Source: Atherinomorus stipes (lineage: Eukaryota; Chordata; Actinopteri; Atheriniformes; Atherinidae). From it: a stretch of DNA of 64,000 nucleotides. The position numbers were made by a program, and so were the translations under genes. Of this stretch, positions 5,173-56,295 are shown one piece after another. The stretch lies in the NCBI GenBank assembly GCA_023101725.1, contig JALJCO010001078.1, forward strand, positions 372,001 to 436,000, read 5' to 3'. Numbering within the stretch: position 1 is the first letter of the stretch; each line of letters begins with the position of its first letter. Under the pieces are notes generated by a model. It was not told the origin of the DNA, ran no database searches, and worked only from the letters and a program-made list of their open reading frames with translations.

Positions 5173-5760
5173 ACACTAGTCAAAAGTTTGGGCGCACTTT
5201 CCCATTACTGTAAATCCAATGTATTCAAACAAATGTGTCATACAACTGTAGAATTTGACAGAGTATCTTGACACGTGTTGTGTGAAGACACAGGCAAGAA
5301 AAAAGATTCTGAGCCTTGCTGCTACTCTGTTTTAAGTGATCACCCCCCAACATACCCAAATAGACAAAAAAAAGAAGTAATATTTGCCCGACAAATTCTC
5401 ATGAAATAAAACAAACAGACAGCACTTTATGGATAATGTCTATACCTAACATTTATATAGAAAGCTTCCCTCATAAGCTTCCATTTGAGCCCCAAATGAC
5501 CTTTTACTAGCTACAGGTTTGCATTGTTTGGAGCCACTCTTTTTTTCTTTTTTTTTTTTCTTTGCCTTTTGTGGATGTTGAGGGTGATAACTTAAAATAG
5601 AGTTGCAGCAGGCTCAGAATATGTTTTCCTGCCTCCCCTTATGCATCCAGATACTCTCTGTCAAATTCTATGACTGTTTATGCAATTGTAGTATCTAAAT
5701 ATTTGGCTTCATATGATTTTGTCCAAGATATCATTTCTGGTGTCAAACCTTTTTGCTGTG
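5173..5760. mobile_element. Fold-back element with diverged inverted arms
   Basis: The left part (about 5175-5390) and the right part (about 5530-5760) are inverted copies. Matching blocks include AGAATTTGACAGAGTATCT, ATTCTGAGCCT and TTTTAAGTGATCACC against their diverged reverse complements. The outer end reads CAAAAGTTTGGGC, a Tc1/mariner-like fish repeat terminus. The arms have diverged and there is no coding capacity. Confidence 0.55.
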
Positions 5761-7307: not shown

Positions 7308-7941
7308 GGCATTCTGTGCCAAATGTAAATAAAAACAGCGCAACTAATCCCATTAGGAAATTAATCCAGTAATCCAGAAATTCAAACCATTTACTTCAAA
7401 CATTTCCCTGAAAATAGTGGAAAGACGGTAGATATATTAATAAAACCAAGGAATTTTAATTTTTTTCTTTTGTTATATTTTTCATTGCAAACCACAGCAC
7501 AGTTTCCCACGTTTCCACTTAAAGCTGGAAACCAAATGTTTGAAAACTGGAAAACAGTTTCCCATTTTGGAAATATTTTTAATATTATACTTTACAGTAA
7601 AATATGATTAATTAATAAAAAGCATTATATATTTATGTAGAAGTAAAATACTGTATGTGAGGAAAATGTGGCTCTTTTATTTTTTGAATCAATGCATGTA
7701 TAAAAGGGTTAAATGAGTTCATTTCAAAGAGCTGGCTTTTCTCCAAGCATGCTGGTGTGGCTCCAGGCGTCACAAAAACTGTTCAGTTTAGTTGTTTAAT
7801 CCACTTGTTTTCTTTATACTGGACTTTTTTCTTCATCATAGTTAATTTTGTTGTGTTTATTTTCACTCTACAAATTTCATTTGCCTTTGTCTCACCCCCT
7901 GAAATCCAGTTGGTTCTTCAACAAGCTCTATAACTCCAGGC

Positions 7942-7948
7942 TCTTCCT
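7942..7948. repeat. Left 7-bp flanking direct repeat (candidate target duplication)
   Basis: TCTTCCT lies immediately outside the left arm of the large inverted repeat. The same 7 bp abuts the right arm at 13713-13719. This is the footprint expected of transposon insertion. Confidence 0.6.
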
Positions 7949-9667
7949 CAACCCAGTCTCATTCCAAAACGTGACAGTCCTACGTTGGTCCACACCACAA
8001 TACGTACTTATTTTACAATTTTACCTCAAAATACGTAGACTTACTACATTTGATTTTCCCATTCATTTTTGTAGGTCACGTGACTGTGGAGTTTCTCACA
8101 AGGAAACATGGCGGCTATCCCTTCAATTTTGGGTGGAAATTGTCATATTTTGAAATAGATTGCGACTCTACCATTGTTTTGATCACTTTTCTAGCGAGAA
8201 ATATACCCTTTATTTTCACATTATTCATTCATTTTATGTATACAATCCATAGTTTTTTTCGTTTCGACGGACATTTTGTCCGCTCTCTCATCAAATATGT
8301 AGAAATACTACGTTTTTTTTCTCTTTTTCACTTCGGTGGTTGCAACGCTTTTAATATGCTAGAATAAGCCGGTGTTCTTGTAATCAGGCCTAAACACAAC
8401 TCGATCTCACAGAAGTACGTGAAATATGCGGATTATAATGATGTTTCAACACTTATTTCTGGTCCAGGCACGTCGGAAATTAGATCAATATAGTCAAGAG
8501 CGGAGCCGGTTGTCTACACAACCTTCCTGTTTCTGGAACAAATAAAAGCACAAATTACGTTTTTGTGACTACTGAAATCACGTTTTTTTTTTTTTTTTTT
8601 TGGTAACATCTCCATTGTTATTTCACCAGTCAAATTGCGGTAGACTATTAAAGTTTTGATATTCTGTTATCTTGTGTGCGTGTGTTCGCCATCCAGAAGT
8701 AAACAGTGGCGCACATCCCTAACTGGGTGCTGGTTAAAGTGGAACATAAGATAAAGAGCAGAAACATAAACACCAGAAATAGCTCCCAAAGAGTTTTTAA
8801 AAGGTGACGTTACGTTTTGGGAGTGCGAATATGTTTATTTTAATTTGCTATCCACACGTCACACGGAATCCCGGAAGTGACGTAGATGGGAGCGCAACGT
8901 CATTCCCGTTTCCAGGCCTATTTCCACATCATAATCAGCAAGACATTTTATGGCACATTGGGTTTTCCATGAAAGTCTTCTTCAGCCTCCCCTGGAAGTC
9001 TTTTTGTTTTCTTTTATAAGGATAAAAAGCATTTTTATTGCCATCGCACGTATCCAATCAGCGCGTCTGACGGCTTCTCTGTCCTCTTCTCATTGGCTGC
9101 GGTGACGCGGAAGTAGTGGCGGAACGTTTGTCCAGAAAGTCATAAATAAACCGATATATTTACTTTTTCTCAGCACTGATCATTTAGTTGTTGCCATTGA
9201 TAATTGGACTGTACAATATGCTTGGAATATGAAGTCAGAATAGTATTTTAAGATTCGATATGTGGCTGCAAAGCAAGAAATGCTCACACACTCCCACGTT
9301 CCGCCGTAGAATGGGGTGCATTCCATTCCAACGTGAGCCCAACCGCCGTCGTCTGGTGGCATTTGGGGTTTTATAGGCCCTGATTCTGTCTATTTTCACG
9401 TCTATTTCAGGAATATGAAGGAGATTTTGTATGTGTGTAGATCAAATTTTCAACTTCTTCTATAAAAAGTTATCAACATAAGGTTATACTGGTCTTTCTA
9501 GACTGAATCCCACATTAAATCCTGCTTTATTTGGGCCTAACTGGACATAATGCATTGCATTAAAACCTTAAAACCCCAGTGGTGCATTATTTATTTATTT
9601 ATTCACAAACAAAAACTGAAAGTGTGTTCTGTCCAGTTTTAAAACTTCATGCTATTGTCTTGTGTTG
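7949..9667 (+). repeat. Left arm of large inverted repeat
   Basis: 1719 bp, the reverse complement of 11992-13712. By eye I found no substitutions in the stretches compared. The two-base length difference is explained by two homopolymer changes: T8 against A9 at the run near 8313, and T5 against A6 near 9002. The arm carries a GTCACGTGAC E-box (8075-8084), a YY1-like ACATGGCGGC (about 8106), a CCGGAAGTGACGTA ETS/CRE composite (8871-8884) and CCAAT boxes (9054-9058 and, inverted, 9092-9096). Short frames of up to 105 codons match nothing I recognise. Confidence 0.9.
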
Positions 9668-9884
9668 CTTTCATTTTTAAATAAAGTTAAATTAAAAAAT
9701 ACTTTTTATTAATGAATTATTAAAATTTTTTTCAAAGGGAAATTCAGTATTGAAGTGCTTTTTCTTTTGTTCAATCATAAAAACAATGATGACAATAATA
9801 ATTATTTGAAAGTTTTGTTATGGAGGGTGATGGCTGCTGGCATGAATGATCTGTACTTCTCCGTCTTGCAGCGGACCTGAAGAA

Positions 9885-9956
9885 GCCTAGCCTGGTTGGT
9901 GTACCAGGCTAGGCTTGGTACACCAACCGTGTATCATGACTAACACCATGATACAC
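9885..9956. other. Cluster of three perfect hairpins, two mutually exclusive
   Basis: Stem 1 pairs 9885-9895 with 9904-9914 (11 bp). Stem 2 pairs 9894-9905 with 9917-9928 (12 bp) and shares bases with stem 1, so the two cannot form together. Stem 3 pairs 9929-9938 with 9947-9956 (10 bp, 8-base loop). A short telomere-like tract, about TAGGGTTAGGGTTAGGGG, follows at about 9964-9981. Confidence 0.75.
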
Positions 9957-9981
9957 AGCTAGTCTAGGGTTAGGGTTAGGG

Positions 9982-10790
9982 GTCTGACTTGTCATGGGTC
10001 TCATACATGTGTTCCCACCGTGGCTCAAGGTGGCAACAAAAGAGGAGTCCACACAATGAGAGTTGTAATAATCAAATTAAGTTTATCATAAATTATGAGA
10101 ACTAAAATGGGGTGTGGAAATGTAGAGTATTAGTGGTGAAGTGCCATGCATGGTTGAGTGACAGTGTGTGTGCTATGTTGTACAAAGATGCAAAGAAACA
10201 TACCTAAACAGAAAAGGTTACCATATGGAGGTGAAATTGGCTACCCAGCGAGAGAGAGCTTGAAAGAGCGACTGGCCTCTAGCCTCTAACCCTCTAGTCC
10301 TCTAGCCCGAGAGACTTGCACAGGCTGCCATTTATCAGCTTGGCCACTCCCAGCTCCACAGGTGCAGCACATTAAAAATAAACTCACCTCAAAACAGAAA
10401 CAAGTAAACATGATGGTGGGCCATCACACATGGTACTGGTCAGGATGTTGTGTCAGGCTGGAAGAAGCCTCCCACTGAACACACTGTTGTTTCTTTACTG
10501 TGTGTGTAGAGGTTGAGAAGAATCCTCCATCATCCTCAGTGTGTGCATCATTCTATTTTGGAAAATCAGCTCCAGCACACATCTAAATGAATTCATACAA
10601 GTGTCTTTCAACTCTGCAGAAGCCTGGTAACAAGCCATGTAATACAGACGTGTTGGAGAAGGGATGGAGAAGAAATGAAAAATTGCAGGATTGTCACTCT
10701 CAATGACTGGACTTTGCCACACCTATCCTTATGGATCATATAACTTTAAAAGGTTAATCAAGGGCCTTCATCTGCCGTCTTTTGGATGGA
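9982..10790. other. Spacer of the large inverted repeat, unidentified repeats
   Basis: No gene. The stretch at about 10570-10660 resembles, in reverse, the interior of the hAT MITE described at 55420-55642 (shared CTGCAGA, GGTAACAAGC and TTGGAGAAGGGATG phrases). The rest is unidentified. Confidence 0.35.
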
Positions 10791-10794
10791 TGTA

Positions 10795-10834
10795 TGAGAA
10801 GGTGTGTCCAAACTTTTGGCCTGTACTGTATTTT
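10795..10834. mobile_element. Tc1/mariner-type repeat terminus
   Basis: GAAGGTGTGTCCAAACTTTT followed by GGCCTGTACTGTA is one end of a very common teleost Tc1/mariner-like repeat. Only one end is recognised here. Confidence 0.45.
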
Positions 10835-10971
10835 TCTGGAGTGGCGGCTGGGGTCCGGGCCCTGAGGTTGCTGCTTGGGTCTTGGGACCCTGTGATAGAT
10901 AGGATTTAAAATAATACTTTTCTATCTTAGATCAAAAGCTTTATAAAGCTGAGCTAGTGATCACAGTACTT

Positions 10972-11785
10972 CTAAGGCAAGGCAAGGCAAGTTTATTTGT
11001 ATAGCACATTTCATGTACAGAACAATTCAAAGTGCTTTACATAAAACATTATAAGCAAAAGGGAGAGAAAAAAACAATTAAAAGCATGATTCAAAATTAA
11101 AAGCATTTAAGATTAAAAAGAGAGAATACAGAGACGTGCGGATTTTAACTTTTGAATAAAATCTACGTAAATGCAGCTGAGAACAGGTGGGTCTTCAGCC
11201 TGGATTTAAATAAACTAAGTGTTTCAGCTGATCTGAGACTTTCTGGGAGTTTGTTCCAGACATGTGGAGCATAGAAGCTGAACGCAGCTTCTCCATGTCT
11301 GGTTCTGACTCTGGGAACTGATAAAAGGCCGGATCCAGATGACCTGAGGGGTCTTGTAGGTTCATACTGGGTCAAGAGGTCACTGATGTATTTTGGGCCT
11401 AAACCATTCAGAGCTTTATAGACCAGCAGCAGAACTTTAAAGTCTATTCTCTGATGGACCGGCAGCCAGTGTAAAGACCTGAGAACTGGACTGATGTGGT
11501 CCACTTTTCTGGTCTTGGTGAGAACTCGGGCAGCAGAGTTCTGAATGAGCTGCAGCTGTTTAACTGATTTTTTAGGTAGACCAGTAAAGACGCTGTTACA
11601 GTAGTCAAGCCGACTGAAGATGAATGCATGGACTAGTTTTTCCAGATTTTCCTGAGACATCAGCCTGATTGGTGGTTTTTATGTGGATGGACTGAAGTTC
11701 TGTGACAACCTGCTGTCGTTTCTCTTTGGCTCCAAAAACAATCACCTCAGTTTTGTTTTTGTTCAGCTGAAGAAAGTTCTTCTAA
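10972..11785 (-). mobile_element. L2/Maui-type LINE 3' fragment
   Basis: On the minus strand a broken reverse-transcriptase C-terminal region is readable. A short upstream piece (about 11690-11785) encodes LNKNKTEVIVFG, then an internal deletion or frameshift leads into the 165-codon frame at 11163-11660. That frame carries SRLDYCNSVFTGLP, the AARVLTKTRK motif and SLHWLPVHQRIDFK. The element ends in the classic teleost L2 tail (TGTGCTATACAAATAAACTTG and repeated CCTTG units at 10972-11040). It is truncated at the 5' end, so it is inactive. Confidence 0.85.
11163..11660 (-). pseudogene. Reverse transcriptase C-terminal fragment (L2-type LINE)
   Basis: This 165-codon open frame corresponds to the region after the catalytic domain in L2-clade LINE polymerases. 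Recognisable blocks are SRLDYCN near residue 17, ARVLTKTRK near 44, LHWLPVHQRIDFKVLLLVYK near 62 and the terminal SLFKSRLKTHLF. The catalytic palm and the endonuclease are absent. The first ATG is just the first Met after the truncation, not a natural start. It lies within the spacer of the large inverted repeat. Confidence 0.85.
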
Positions 11786-11956
11786 ACAGAACATGTTGAT
11801 AAAATGAAAATATGATGGTTTATTTGAGTTAGTGTTTCAATATATAATGTGGGTGTGAACACACCTGAATCAAATAGATGGCTTGTTACCACAGTTAAAT
11901 GACATTTGCATGAATTCATCTACGTGTGTTGGAGAAAGAATGCATCTGATTTTATT

Positions 11957-11989
11957 TTCCATCCATCCATCCATCCATCCATCCATCCA
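11957..11989. repeat. (ATCC)n microsatellite at inner arm junction
   Basis: A tandem ATCC tract that ends 3 bp before the right arm of the inverted repeat begins. Confidence 0.9.
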
Positions 11990-11991
11990 AA

Positions 11992-13712
11992 CAACACAAG
12001 ACAATAGCATGAAGTTTTAAAACTGGACAGAACACACTTTCAGTTTTTGTTTGTGAATAAATAAATAAATAATGCACCACTGGGGTTTTAAGGTTTTAAT
12101 GCAATGCATTATGTCCAGTTAGGCCCAAATAAAGCAGGATTTAATGTGGGATTCAGTCTAGAAAGACCAGTATAACCTTATGTTGATAACTTTTTATAGA
12201 AGAAGTTGAAAATTTGATCTACACACATACAAAATCTCCTTCATATTCCTGAAATAGACGTGAAAATAGACAGAATCAGGGCCTATAAAACCCCAAATGC
12301 CACCAGACGACGGCGGTTGGGCTCACGTTGGAATGGAATGCACCCCATTCTACGGCGGAACGTGGGAGTGTGTGAGCATTTCTTGCTTTGCAGCCACATA
12401 TCGAATCTTAAAATACTATTCTGACTTCATATTCCAAGCATATTGTACAGTCCAATTATCAATGGCAACAACTAAATGATCAGTGCTGAGAAAAAGTAAA
12501 TATATCGGTTTATTTATGACTTTCTGGACAAACGTTCCGCCACTACTTCCGCGTCACCGCAGCCAATGAGAAGAGGACAGAGAAGCCGTCAGACGCGCTG
12601 ATTGGATACGTGCGATGGCAATAAAAATGCTTTTTATCCTTATAAAAGAAAACAAAAAAGACTTCCAGGGGAGGCTGAAGAAGACTTTCATGGAAAACCC
12701 AATGTGCCATAAAATGTCTTGCTGATTATGATGTGGAAATAGGCCTGGAAACGGGAATGACGTTGCGCTCCCATCTACGTCACTTCCGGGATTCCGTGTG
12801 ACGTGTGGATAGCAAATTAAAATAAACATATTCGCACTCCCAAAACGTAACGTCACCTTTTAAAAACTCTTTGGGAGCTATTTCTGGTGTTTATGTTTCT
12901 GCTCTTTATCTTATGTTCCACTTTAACCAGCACCCAGTTAGGGATGTGCGCCACTGTTTACTTCTGGATGGCGAACACACGCACACAAGATAACAGAATA
13001 TCAAAACTTTAATAGTCTACCGCAATTTGACTGGTGAAATAACAATGGAGATGTTACCAAAAAAAAAAAAAAAAAAACGTGATTTCAGTAGTCACAAAAA
13101 CGTAATTTGTGCTTTTATTTGTTCCAGAAACAGGAAGGTTGTGTAGACAACCGGCTCCGCTCTTGACTATATTGATCTAATTTCCGACGTGCCTGGACCA
13201 GAAATAAGTGTTGAAACATCATTATAATCCGCATATTTCACGTACTTCTGTGAGATCGAGTTGTGTTTAGGCCTGATTACAAGAACACCGGCTTATTCTA
13301 GCATATTAAAAGCGTTGCAACCACCGAAGTGAAAAAGAGAAAAAAAAACGTAGTATTTCTACATATTTGATGAGAGAGCGGACAAAATGTCCGTCGAAAC
13401 GAAAAAAACTATGGATTGTATACATAAAATGAATGAATAATGTGAAAATAAAGGGTATATTTCTCGCTAGAAAAGTGATCAAAACAATGGTAGAGTCGCA
13501 ATCTATTTCAAAATATGACAATTTCCACCCAAAATTGAAGGGATAGCCGCCATGTTTCCTTGTGAGAAACTCCACAGTCACGTGACCTACAAAAATGAAT
13601 GGGAAAATCAAATGTAGTAAGTCTACGTATTTTGAGGTAAAATTGTAAAATAAGTACGTATTGTGGTGTGGACCAACGTAGGACTGTCACGTTTTGGAAT
13701 GAGACTGGGTTG
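11992..13712 (-). repeat. Right arm of large inverted repeat
   Basis: 1721 bp, the inverted copy of 7949-9667. Equivalent frames recur in mirror orientation, for example the 60-codon frame at 12297-12479 (+) is identical to that at 9180-9362 (-). The same promoter-type motifs occur in reverse, including the E-box at about 13577-13586 and CCAAT/CRE-like elements at about 12540-12605. Confidence 0.9.
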
Positions 13713-13719
13713 TCTTCCT
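13713..13719. repeat. Right 7-bp flanking direct repeat
   Basis: TCTTCCT, the partner of 7942-7948. Confidence 0.6.
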
Positions 13720-16650
13720 TTACATTCAGCAGAAGAATATTTGCTTTTTGGAGTCTCATAGTTTAAAGGTGTAAAGTGTAGACATTTGCAAATGGTGCGT
13801 ACACACAACACAGTCCTATTTAAACTGCTGCTGAGACACACTTACCGCTGCAGCCCACAGTCGCATACTCTACTTGTATAATGGCATTGTATTACATTAC
13901 ACGACTCCCTGGTAACCCGTTCCTGTGCCAAACAAAATCTAAAGCCTGAACTCTGATAGGATTTAATTGTCCCAAAATTGAAGTGCACACATACAAATGC
14001 ATCATCGGCTTTATTTGTATCAGTGAGTGCCAGCTTGTTTTTATCTGTCTGCCCATCGGCTTGTTTCTGTTTCTCTGTCTTCCTCTCATCCTTATCTGAC
14101 ATCTGATGCTGGAGTGTAGCGTTACCACACACACATGTAAGAGGAAGGAAGGGGCACGAGTGGTTGACTTTACTCTAAGCCAACAGATGTTTAGCCAACT
14201 GGAAGAGGAATATTTCGTTGGAGTATTGGCTTGCGTTTAACATTGAGACGATACAGAGAGTCAGAGAAGTGATTGTATGAGGCGCGTAACATCTTCTTAA
14301 AGGTAAAAGAAAGCACCATGTTTATGTGGCTGTGTGTTTTTTGCAATGTTAGTTGTGTCTGTGTCCTTTTGCATCATTGTTGCTCACGAACGTGACTTCT
14401 AAGAGATATAGATTGTTTCAGTGTATTCATCCTGCACAATAGTATGTGTGTCTCCACTGAAACGCTGCCTCGCTGGCACTCGGAAGGTTAACTGATGCAC
14501 ACAAAGTAGAAGATGTCTATGAGTGGACTTTTAAACATAGATGATTACTTATTTCATGTTTTAGTTTTGAAACATGTAAGGTGTTAAAAGGAACCGAAGG
14601 GGTGAAATCAGTCTGAAGACCAAGAAAACCCTATAAAAGGAGCCCTTGAGTTATGTGAAAGACAAATCAAAGCCTTATGTGGTGGTGCGCTGTCCAACCA
14701 CCCCAGTCTGACAAAAAAAAAAAAAAAAAAGGAAAAAAGAGTTTTCAAGGTCTTTAAATGTCTTTCTTTGGGTATTGATTTCTTTTTCAGTTTTCAGTTT
14801 TGGATGGCATGTCTGTCTCAATGTCACAAAAAGAAGCAGAAATTTGGAGATAGTAACATTTTCTGAATAAATGAAAGTTTGGATATTCACAGGCAGCTGC
14901 TTTAGCCATTATTTTGTATTTATATAACAGGGAACAGGGTTTCATGCTGTTTTTTTTTCACCCTCAGGTCAATGTTACAGGATGACAAGATGATAGTTGA
15001 CTTGTCCCCAGATCAAGTCGTCCTGGCTGGACTCTAACGTTTCTAGTGGGCAGTGTTTTGCTGCCCAGATGGCTGCGTCAGGGTAATTCCCCGCAGAAGG
15101 GCTCGTCGCTAATCCTCCAGAGAATCTGAACAAGCTTGATCTCATGCCTACATGAGAAACCGAACAGCTAGTTTACAGCAGCTCCCTGGCTGTGAGTTCC
15201 TTACAGCGAAGCCGGCTGGCTTACAGACAGCAGCAGCACAGTCTGCTGGTTTACAGTAAGGTCACGATCAGCTCCACACTGGGAGTACAGCCAGTCAGAA
15301 GATGTAAAGCCAACTGCTCTGTAAGCTTGTCGGGGTAGTGAGAGCTCTCTATAGGACAAACAGGAGGTAAGGAGGTCTAGAGATAGATCAGAGAACAAGG
15401 AGAGGGCGATTCAGAGATCACAGATCACAAGCCGTTTAGTTACAGATTTTTAAATCTCAGCGTGGGAACTCTTTCTGCAATATGGGACCTTTAACAATCA
15501 GGTAAACATGTCTGACTTTTATTACTATTTTTTGTATTGATGTAAATCTACGAAAGTATGAAAAAAAAAAAGATTCACTGTTTTCTGCTTACGGATACAC
15601 AAAGTTTATGTTCATATAGGTGAATGAATTTCAAGAAGCCCAATGTGTTTCAGAGCAGGTCACACAAAAGAGTCAAAGACTGCAGGCATGCAGGGGGGTG
15701 ACCTTAATTCAGTTGGCCTTTAATTATTTGTGTGAACTCAGTGTGGGTTTGTTTCATTTTGCTGCTTTTGTCAGTGCAGCAAGACTGATAAAAGTCTGCT
15801 GCCACACCAAAGCGGGCTTTTTCTTCATGTAAAGTACATGATTCTTAAGAGTGGTGTATGGACAAGAATCAGCTGTCATCTTCACTGACGAGCAGATAAA
15901 AGGGGATTATTTTTGCCTCCTTCTCATGCTCATGGTAACAAGAAATGTGAAGGAAGTCTATGTGATATAATTTCATGAGCTGGATATCAAAATTGATTTT
16001 AATCTTAATGTCCAGCTGAGATGTGCAGCTTTAGCTTTGATGTGGTGCTAATATGGGTTTCTAAGTGGTGTTTGTACTTAAGCTTTCATTTCCTCTGTGT
16101 TTGCTTGTGCACGCTGCTCCGGCCTGCTTTGGATCCACACTGCTTCACTAATGGTGAGTCCACTGAAACATACTCCACCTCACTCTTCATTGAAATTTTT
16201 TTCCTCTACCTTTGCTGCTCTTGACAAAAGAATAGTGAGAATAGCAACAAGTATGATTCTCACACAAGTTTTTCTTTTAGAGGTTTGCATCACTCTGCTT
16301 TATATGAATGCTTCCCCTCTGTGGTTGGTTGTTTACTCTTCTTCAGTAGATGTCAAATCTGCATGCTGGATTCCACTCTAAGCCAATTACCTGAGCTTCT
16401 TTAATCTCTCTGTGGGTATATGCAAAGGTGTATGTGTGTGTCTGTGTGTGCACATACACAGGCACACAGTGGAAGTAGCAATGCCTTATGTTATGCAATG
16501 AAAAGTCTGTCCTTTTTATGTGTGGCTGTGTGGATCAGAATGGGGCTGAAAGGAGAAAGATTAACTAATTGTTGAAGAAGTAATCACAGGAACAAGCTTA
16601 GTTTAAAACACTAAACAGATTTTACTGAGAAAAATAATCTTTTTATTTAT
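13720..16650. other. Non-coding DNA, no gene recognised
   Basis: No convincing coding frame was found. There is an A-run at about 14713-14730. Short frames of up to 96 codons lack family signatures and splice context. Confidence 0.4.
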
Positions 16651-16984: not shown

Positions 16985-17024
16985 TAAATACATTTAAAAA
17001 TAAATAAATGAATAAATGAATGTA

Positions 17025-17059
<35 letters not shown>

Positions 17060-17096
17060 AAAAAAAAATGAATGAATGAATGAATGAATGAATGAA
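16985..17096. repeat. (AAAT)n/(AATG)n compound microsatellite
   Basis: Tandem AAAT units change to AATG units near 17068. Confidence 0.9.
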
Positions 17097-17099
17097 TCT

Positions 17100-17990
17100 T
17101 CTACTTGTTGCAGTTTCTCAACGTGGCCTCTGGAGGGAGCTACGTCGTTACACTAGAACTGCCGCATCCACAACGAACATCCCTCCAAGTTAGATAGACA
17201 AGAAGCGTAACCAATCAAATCTCAGCATTTAATACAGTAATTCCTCTCAGCCAATGATACGCAGCCAAAAGATGTTTTTCACTGTATTGGGTGGGTTTTG
17301 AGGATGATAGACAAATCTGCCTCGAACTCCGGCCAGATCTTCGGTGTGGACTGAGGTTGAGATTTTTGGAGGCTGAGGTACTGGGACGTACATTAATTTT
17401 TTTTTCACAGGAGAACAGAACACGAGTCCACGTTTGGAAAAGTCTCCAATACGCATCGGTGGAAATTTCAACAGGTATCGTTTTATTTTCACCTCCATAA
17501 AGTCACGTGATTTAGACATCAGCCACAGCGGCTGGTTCATTGGTTTTAGGATGGTCTGTGTGTAGTAACCTCGCTTTTTTGGTGTAAATAAGAAGGTAGC
17601 ATTCTCTATCTTCACAAATAACCACAGTCTGCTAAAAGGCTGTATGCACAAAGGGTCAGGCAAACACCACGTTTCCTACTGAAACCCGTTATGTAGGAAA
17701 TGTTTTCATACCTTCGATTTAAGGCGCTTCATGGCGCCTATCTTCTTCCATGCTATTCCTGTTGTCATCATCACCTTTACTACCTTCTCGTCCCGCTGTT
17801 TCTCAGTGGGTTGTGATTTACATGGTCAGTGTAAAAGCGTTTAGCTCAGGCAGATTCAGCTTGATTCAGAAAGCCATCTTTTAAAATCATGCTAGCGTCG
17901 TTGCCTTTAGAGACTATTCAAACATCCGGCTGTGTTTTTGTAGGACAATACACGAAGCTGCTTCCTGCCGCTAAGATAACAGGTAGTAGA
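17100..17990. promoter_or_regulatory. CpG-richer segment, possible promoter or 5' exon
   Basis: CpG is visibly more frequent here than in the surrounding intergenic DNA. A spliceable AAGATAACAG|GTAGTAGA occurs near 17981. The segment lies about 11 kb upstream of the first coding exon of the 4.1 gene, where a non-coding first exon would be plausible. A 138-codon minus-strand frame (17247-17663) shows no family motif. Weak without transcript data. Confidence 0.25.
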
Positions 17991-20900
17991 TGGCTATATG
18001 TGAGCTGTTGAGTTTAATTTAATTTATTAATTCGAGGTAATCGTATTCTTTAGTGGTTTTGGGGAGGTGTATATTACCTGGCGTCATTGTGTTTCTGATA
18101 GCAGAACGTGTTTCGTTATAAAGTGATTCATTTTAAATGTTGAGGTTACAAAGGCTGTCTGGGAAATGCAGTCCTATATGGATATTTACTGAATTCAAAG
18201 GATGTTTTTCCTCTCATGATGCATGATTTATGGGGGTGGGGTGATGATGTAATGCCAGCAGACTAAAAGAATAAGCATGTGGTTTGTGGAGTGAGTGAGT
18301 GAATGTATGTATGTATGTTTATAAACAGTCATAGAAATCACACTTAGAAGAAAAACGCATACATGTAGAGAGATAATGGGAGAAACACGGCTGGGTTGAG
18401 ATTGTCCATCCATGTTACTTTGAATAAACATCTGATTTTTATCAGTAACTATACGATTTTTTGCAGCTCTGTGTATGATGTGTGTTAGTCTGATATAAGG
18501 ATCTCTGGCCATGGTTGTTTACAATCACTCTAATTATGGGTTTTAGTGTGTGATGTCAAGTTGTCACTACACAACATTGCTGCCTTATTGTGTTTTGTCT
18601 GAAAGAAGGGTAGAATGGAAATAGGACAAGAATACCGTCACAAGAGTTGAGTAAAACCAGTGCAATTCCAAATCCCCCATCACAACTGTTGTACACCAGT
18701 CATTTATGTTTATGGCAAACTCTGTTTTGCTTTTTTTGGCATTGAAAATGAGCTCATACTTACCAGTTTATTTTTGCACAGACAAACCTATAGGCTGCAG
18801 GTGTAAGCCAAATGAATGTTGAGTTTGGTAAGCCATTAAAGAGAGCGTTAGCAGTGAACATGTCTGTCTCTGGGGTGTGTTTTTCCTGTCAGGCCTCTCA
18901 CTTGTGTGTACAGTTTATCTATAATCATCAGCGCAATGGTCGCTCTCAGGATGTGCAGAACAGTGGCAGCTCTGTTAAACCCACTAATGAGAAGCCTTAA
19001 TTGGTTGTTCTGGTGGGGAGAATCTGCTCATTAAACAGAGCAGGAACTTAACTGTGGGCTTGCAAGAATGAGTGCATGGCTGGATTTGGTTTTCTTTTGA
19101 TATCACTGTTGTCAGCTTGAAACTTTGCAGCGTTATTTTGGGCCCATGGATTTGATGAAATTATATTTTTCAACACACTTTTGGGGAATTTGTTTTGTCA
19201 CATTTCCACAAAACATGTCAGTGGATATAAAATTGAACACCTGTAACTTAAGCAAAGTTTCATTTTTTTTTAAAGCTAAATAAAAAAGAATACTGCTACC
19301 ACTCTGCAGTTCCACTTTAATTTTGAAGATGCAGGGATGCAAAGATGGAAAAGTAGCAATGTATTGAGGTGTTGTGAGAAACAGGGAAAGGAAGCGAGAC
19401 ATACATAGAAAGGAAGTTGATAAGAGACACAAGAGAAGAAAGAGATTGGGTTAACGCGGCAGAAAGAGTGAAAGAAATTGCTTAACCATTCGGAAAGGCT
19501 ATGGGAACATCCCCCTGTGTGCAATTGTGTACATATGTGTGTTTTCATACTGTCCTTGTGGGTTCAATGGGAGCAACACACGTCACATCAGCTCAGATAG
19601 CCTGACGTTGGTTTGAATGAATATAGTTTTTTAGAAAAAAGTAAATAAAAAAAAAAAAAGTCATCCAGTCAGTGTCAGAAATCCACAAGTCGGTAACCCC
19701 GTTGCTCATGTAATCACAAAGCACAGTTCAATGCCTTCATCTCCTTCGTGATTGTAGTGACATCGGGGCAGTCACAACAATTATTAAGGCAGACATACTG
19801 TATGGTGTAGTCAGCCGTGAGAGGCAAGTATTAGCCTCTAGCTTTCAGGTCTGCCCGGCCAGCAGGCATCGCGGGACTCGGTGTTCATGCAGAGAAGATC
19901 AGAGGGGCATGGATGAATGGAAACTGTAATGCAATGTTCAGCTTATTACAGAGACAGTGAGTGCTGCAGGGTGGGTGAAAGGGTGTGGTTGGGGGAATGA
20001 AAGAGGGATTGAGATGTTTGATGGAGAGGACAAAATGGGAGATTGGGTTACTCTTTGGATAAGAGGGTAACTTAACTTCTTCACCCCACAAAATGTGGAA
20101 AAAAATAGTTATTTTGTTTTAGCCAAGAGTGAGAGCAGCCTTATCTTAATTGTGTCGAACCAGCGAATTAATTAAGTTAAATTCAGTGCAGTGTGACAGT
20201 AGATTTGAATTGCAGAGATTAGTTGAGCCATATTTTTTCCTTGATAAGAGGGTCCATCAGAAAAGAAAAGAAAGTCTTTGTGTTAAATGGTAACATTTCG
20301 CATCAGAGAGGGGGACAGAGAGGGCAAACTGCCTTCCCCAGCATGTGTCCAACTCTGAAAGAAATGATAGAGTAAAAAACAGAGACAGAGCGTGGGCCTG
20401 TGGCTTTGGCATGAAGCCAAACATAGTTAAAAAGAGATTAATCAGCAAAGGGTCACATTCTCACAGAGAGAGGCTGAACAGGACGGGGCAGAGCCTTCAT
20501 CTTTTAAAGGCCACAACTGAGGGAGCAACACGAGGAAATTTTGGCCTAGAGGTTTGTGTCAGCTTATAATGATGTCTGATTTCGTAGCATGTTCTTGACA
20601 CGGCTTCCTAAAATTTGGCAAATTGAGACAAATGGAGAATGTAGTGTTATATTATTTATATGCATTTGAGGTTAGTTTTATAATGGCATCATTATTTATT
20701 TTAGATAAGGGGATATTTAATCGATTATGTTCAGTTGCACACAGGATGTTGCATTGATTTATATGTCTGATTAAAGAGTTGTGCTCATGTTGCAGCCCTC
20801 TAATCTGTTGCAATATATTCTTTTATTATATCCATCGTTTAATAGATGGAGCAATGCTCAAGTTTCTCCTTTGCCCCCAAACTGTGTGTCTCTTTACCCA

Positions 20901-29353: not shown

Positions 29354-56295
<26,942 letters not shown>

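Follow-up and report, generated by a model that had tools for sequence, protein, structure and literature searches.

The window analyzed here, a 64,000-nucleotide stretch of DNA from the teleost Atherinomorus stipes, carries at positions 7949–13712 an element of 5764 bp, not counting the short direct repeat at its borders, in which two long inverted arms enclose a core of different composition. Its features are as follows:

7942..7948 (no strand): left target-site duplication, TCTTCCT
7949..9667 (+): left arm, a long terminal inverted repeat that starts with CAACCCAGTCTC, ends with TGTTG and has 0 substitutions relative to the right arm
7949..9400 (+): outer, ACGT-rich part of the left arm without CpG depletion (59 CpGs vs 57.2 expected)
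9401..9667 (+): inner part of the left arm, devoid of CpG (0 vs 6.8 expected; boundary set post hoc) and probably older DNA
9668..11991 (no strand): CpG-poor core (o/e 0.23), host-like in composition, with old repeats and no domain found
11166..11678 (–): 171-aa open piece in the core, a putative fish LINE reverse transcriptase region by its protein matches
11958..11989 (no strand): (TCCA)8 array bordering the right arm on its inner side
11992..13712 (–): right arm, the reverse complement of the left by alignment
13713..13719 (no strand): right target-site duplication, TCTTCCT

A sequence-only reading of this locus had described a 5.76-kb element with arms of 1719 and 1721 bp that are reverse complements of one another, and both BLAST and MAFFT return these coordinates and lengths. 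The two arms differ by 0 substitutions and by two single-base length differences, both in poly-T runs (8312/13348 and 9000/12659), which places their divergence at no more than 0.17% (95% upper bound for 0 changes in 1719 aligned positions). Both ends of the element start with CAACCCAGTCTC, and the terminus, read as an end sequence, is CAACCCAG; apart from the two element ends, the window holds no further site for this 17-base terminus with up to 3 mismatches allowed. At the inner side, identity stops after TGTTG, where C at 9668 is opposed by T, and the sequence further in is unrelated. When the whole window is searched for inverted pairs longer than 60 bp (E 1e-8, with low-complexity masking), three are obtained, of 1724 aligned columns (the arms), 85 bp and 131 bp. 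Upstream of the element, the segments 5292–5376 and 5553–5634 form an inverted pair (85 bp, 82% identical, ~180 bp apart), a small, older MITE-like structure.

The heptamer TCTTCCT, also proposed previously as an exact direct repeat bounding the arms, indeed adjoins both outer ends without mismatch (7942–7948 and 13713–13719). An 8-bp duplication is ruled out by the neighboring bases, which differ (C at 7941 and T at 13720), and two 7-mers drawn at random from the window match with a probability of ~1.6e-4 (one million random pairs). No separate 7-bp duplication of either arm was found in the inner-end flanks inspected, and the presence of the duplication at the outer ends, with none seen at the inner arm ends, indicates that all 5.76 kb were inserted together, as a single unit. 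With long inverted repeats making up most of the element and a target-site duplication flanking them, its structure is that of the foldback or long-TIR class of DNA transposons.

The composition of the locus is a mosaic. The CpG o/e, at 0.93 for either arm, falls to 0.23 in the core; the remaining window has a value of 0.32, and there 1131 overlapping windows of 1719 bp give a mean of 0.312 and a maximum of 0.715. At a scale of 500 bp, CpG-rich spots do occur elsewhere in the window (o/e 0.92 at 17001 and 0.84 at 44001), and thus the arms stand out by the length of their CpG-rich stretch. The first of these spots belongs to a further CpG-rich, low-GC stretch at 17001–18200, which has an o/e of 0.82 at 17701 in 500-bp windows. 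Within the left arm, the last of the 59 CpGs lies at 9399, such that the outer 1452 bp show no depletion, whereas the inner 267 bp contain no CpG and are enriched in TG+CA (40 vs 28.9 expected). A terminal CpG gap of this length has P ~5e-5 under an even spread, for a border that was chosen post hoc at the last CpG. The tetranucleotide ACGT, picked after looking at the sequence, occurs 20 times in the arm vs 5.8 expected from dinucleotides, a count that was reached in 0 of 2000 first-order simulations. The inner, CpG-free part of the arm is probably older DNA that was drawn into the inverted repeat. As the inverted repeat continues for ~270 bp beyond the composition border, and thus crosses it, the arms would either have grown inward or have been remade, in the course of repair, around host DNA that the element had captured; this suggests that the change took place after the old DNA had joined the element. 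Alternatively, germline hypomethylation of promoter-like sequence could cause the CpG contrast.

The core looks like ordinary old host DNA. A protein search with its 171-aa open piece gave 1641 matches with E values of 0.001 or lower and a best identity of 84%, and the 120 matches listed include proteins of Sebastes umbrosus, Embiotoca jacksoni, Zoarces viviparus, Larimichthys crocea, and Leuciscus waleckii, together with a single record carrying a bacterial name, Alcanivorax. On the strength of these protein matches, we read the piece, which has no Pfam match, as a probable teleost LINE fragment. It is flanked within the core by diverged inverted repeats (10570–10641 and 11875–11934), and a stretch of the core resembles positions 55425–55548 elsewhere in the window (72%); these repeats and their relative constitute an older nested repeat. 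Strong stem-loops are found at 9880–9960, and the DNA of 9668–9990 folds far better than its shuffles (z –5.2).

That the element lacks a transposase, as had been noted before, is borne out by our Pfam scan, in which all 34 open reading frames of 50 aa or more that lie within or at the borders of the element stay below the cut-off, with the reservation that short exons could escape a scan limited to this size. No transposase of the P, hAT, or KDZ type is thus seen in the element. Weak matches below the cut-off were returned for five of the frames, to four unrelated families (DctM twice, TMTC_DUF1736, Rrn6_beta-prop, and DUF7873), none of them a transposase. Within the reach of these tests, we therefore take the element to be non-autonomous. 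With all Pfam matches of the 34 frames lying under the cut-offs, we also rejected the idea that arms or core preserve a coding relic. Two open reading frames of the arms have no homologous protein among 5.8 billion proteins, although fish LINE fragments do have relatives there, and thus there is no sign that the arms belong to a repeat that is common in fish. Elsewhere in the window, an open frame at 31605–31979 has no match as a whole in Pfam, nor do its last 40 aa in a solved-structure search; its end bears some resemblance to the beginning of a FERM protein of the band 4.1 type.

Nucleotide searches with words from the arms gave similarly sparse results. Among viral contigs, the 17-base end has one match, which does not extend, and four other arm words have 0 matches; five matches in bacterial genome contigs do not extend beyond 20 bp when compared with the arm, and the arm words are unmatched in plasmid and phage collections. 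Such absence from prokaryote and virus collections says little about fish. Rfam has no match anywhere in the window. The letters of the terminus also appear in four papers, whose titles deal with fertility in sheep, hybrids of butterflyfish, C-reactive protein of fish, and lung injury; judging from these titles, they are likely to be primers. The element itself was not found in a literature search, beyond the reach of which lay Repbase entries and most subscription papers, and for foldback elements in vertebrates the 20 matches listed, of 11,641, were all off-subject.

We also compared eleven promoter motifs in the arms with a first-order model, without correction for their number. CCAAT is not enriched (4 seen vs 4.88 expected), and the excess is weak for the ETS-like motif (2 vs 0.42, P 0.065) and the YY1-like motif (1 vs 0.08, P 0.078). 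Nominal excesses are seen for TGACGT (4 vs 0.73, P 0.010) and for CACGTGAC, where the two counts amount to a single GTCACGTGAC site. These counts provide only a hint of a possible promoter function of the arms; in Mutator elements, long TIRs are known to contain promoters (PMC3310237).

Taking these observations together, we consider it likely, with a probability of roughly 0.8, that positions 7949–13712 represent a single, recent insertion into this teleost genome, the inserted unit being a DNA transposon of the foldback type that is non-autonomous and has very long TIRs. A foldback or long-TIR transposon had already been put forward by the sequence-only reading, and it stands as the best explanation of the duplication and the near-identical arms; the accompanying suggestions, that the element may be undescribed and does not clearly fit a superfamily that can be named, are not established, and several known groups make 7-bp duplications. 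Against our reading stand the single copy known, with the terminus absent elsewhere in the window, the lack of protein relatives for the two arm frames, the possible promoter-related cause of the CpG contrast, and the further CpG-rich spots seen at a scale of 500 bp. The insertion would have proceeded by cut-and-paste, with a trans-acting transposase of the RNase-H type recognizing the CA...TG ends, and with the 5764-bp unit being excised and then inserted at a 7-bp staggered cut to leave TCTTCCT on both sides. The ends proper of the transposon would be the CpG-rich outer 1.45 kb. The core, together with the inner 0.27 kb of either arm, would be older DNA that entered by template switching during gap repair, after which the inverted repeat would have been extended or homogenized inward, in line with what is described for the TIRs of Galileo.

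The same data can be read in other ways. If a CpG-rich host segment had undergone a segmental inverted duplication, for instance through fold-back replication or template switching, with no transposition, TCTTCCT would be a product of chance or microhomology. The single known copy, the lack of a coding relic in the arms, and an inverted repeat that spans the composition boundary and has its inner end at the (TCCA)8 array would all sit well with such an event. However, the chance of an exact 7-mer at both outer ends is small (~1.6e-4), and nothing in a simple inverted duplication would place a direct repeat at its outer ends, such that we regard this origin as unlikely. A composite transposon, in which two inverted 1.72-kb elements (CAAC...GTTG) would be mobile together with the intervening DNA, is brought to mind by the fact that each arm spans CAAC to GTTG, and by a core that resembles unrelated host DNA. 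It strikes us as distinctly improbable, however, as the two ends of a single arm share little past CAAC, its innermost 267 bp are host-like in composition, and neither arm has its own 7-bp duplication in the flanks inspected. Finally, near-perfect arms are a known pattern of the false inverted duplications that arise in assemblies from chimeric or fold-back reads, but here the arms differ at two poly-T runs, have 2.3 kb of unrelated sequence between them, and are bounded outside by an exact 7-bp direct repeat, which makes an artifact very improbable.

Returning to the insertion of a foldback-type transposon, its class is most likely the CA...TG group with duplications of 7–8 bp, that is, P/Galileo-like, hAT, or KDZ. 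The 7-bp duplication and the CA...TG ends fit, without proving, a Galileo-like P element, hAT7, or Kyakuja. We place a P/Galileo-like origin slightly ahead of hAT and KDZ, since, in the literature consulted, no other of these candidates is reported to combine 7-bp duplications with TIRs of kilobase length. Galileo (P superfamily, Drosophila) is described as making 7-bp, sometimes 8-bp, duplications (PMC2775673, PMC4168063), has TIRs of 18 to 1250 bp that are longest in non-autonomous copies (PMC3573991), and changes the length of its TIRs by taking in internal sequence (PMC3573991, PMC4168063). On these descriptions, the present element resembles Galileo in its 7-bp duplication, in its kilobase TIRs without a transposase of their own, and in a TIR that runs into internal sequence. 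It differs in its vertebrate host, in its 1.72-kb arms (vs the 1.26 kb reported for Galileo), in the target TCTTCCT (vs a GTANTAC consensus), and in that no P transposase is seen in the element; furthermore, on self-comparison the arms show none of the internal tandem repeats described for some Galileo TIRs. The likeness is a parallel rather than proof of membership.

The other candidates each share part of this structure. The zebrafish P element Pdre2, with 13-bp TIRs and an 8-bp duplication, has in common with our element the fish host and the CA at the start of its ends (PMC10983969), and differs in lacking the long arms and the 7-bp duplication and in its terminal sequence beyond CA; its short TIRs and 8-bp duplication speak against a simple P assignment. 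Duplications of 7 bp are also made by hAT7 and Kyakuja (KDZ), both described in the source from fungi, and Kyakuja additionally shares the CA..TG ends (PMC12730594); TIRs are absent from the Kyakuja families of that source, in contrast to the present element, although its long arms might be secondary. Dada elements resemble ours in fish host and duplication length (6–7 bp), and are described as having no TIRs and inserting in tRNA, snRNA, or 5S genes (PMC3706591, PMC8869645); on this description, the 1.7-kb TIRs and the absence of any Rfam small RNA match in the window exclude membership. With regard to the core, Pack-TIR elements of animals, including zebrafish, are reported to capture neighboring DNA through gap-filling repair, and the TIR element Ssk-FB4, with TIRs of ~700 bp, makes duplications of 9–10 bp (PMC8277862). 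Ours is similar to both as a TIR element enclosing captured non-transposon DNA, and differs from Ssk-FB4 in its 7-bp duplication. Gap-filling capture fits the combination of young-looking ends with an old-looking core.

Much more tentatively, and with the odds against it, one may envisage a vertebrate foldback family served by a 7-bp-duplicating transposase, in which CpG-intact ends of 1.45 kb would take up old host DNA and then turn the edge of the captured piece into new inverted repeat, such that every round of repair would lengthen the arms inward; the undecayed CpG would then reflect either a recent horizontal arrival or promoter-like, ACGT-rich ends kept free of methylation in the germline. 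To our knowledge, a non-autonomous long-TIR element of this kind is unusual in vertebrates. In the literature consulted, the combination of kilobase TIRs with a 7-bp duplication is best documented for Galileo of Drosophila, where recombination between copies makes natural inversions, and if the present element is a young vertebrate counterpart of Galileo, it would be a source of inversions and of hairpin-forming DNA in its host. The sharp CpG step within a near-perfect inverted repeat may, moreover, offer a way to watch the lengthening of the arms.
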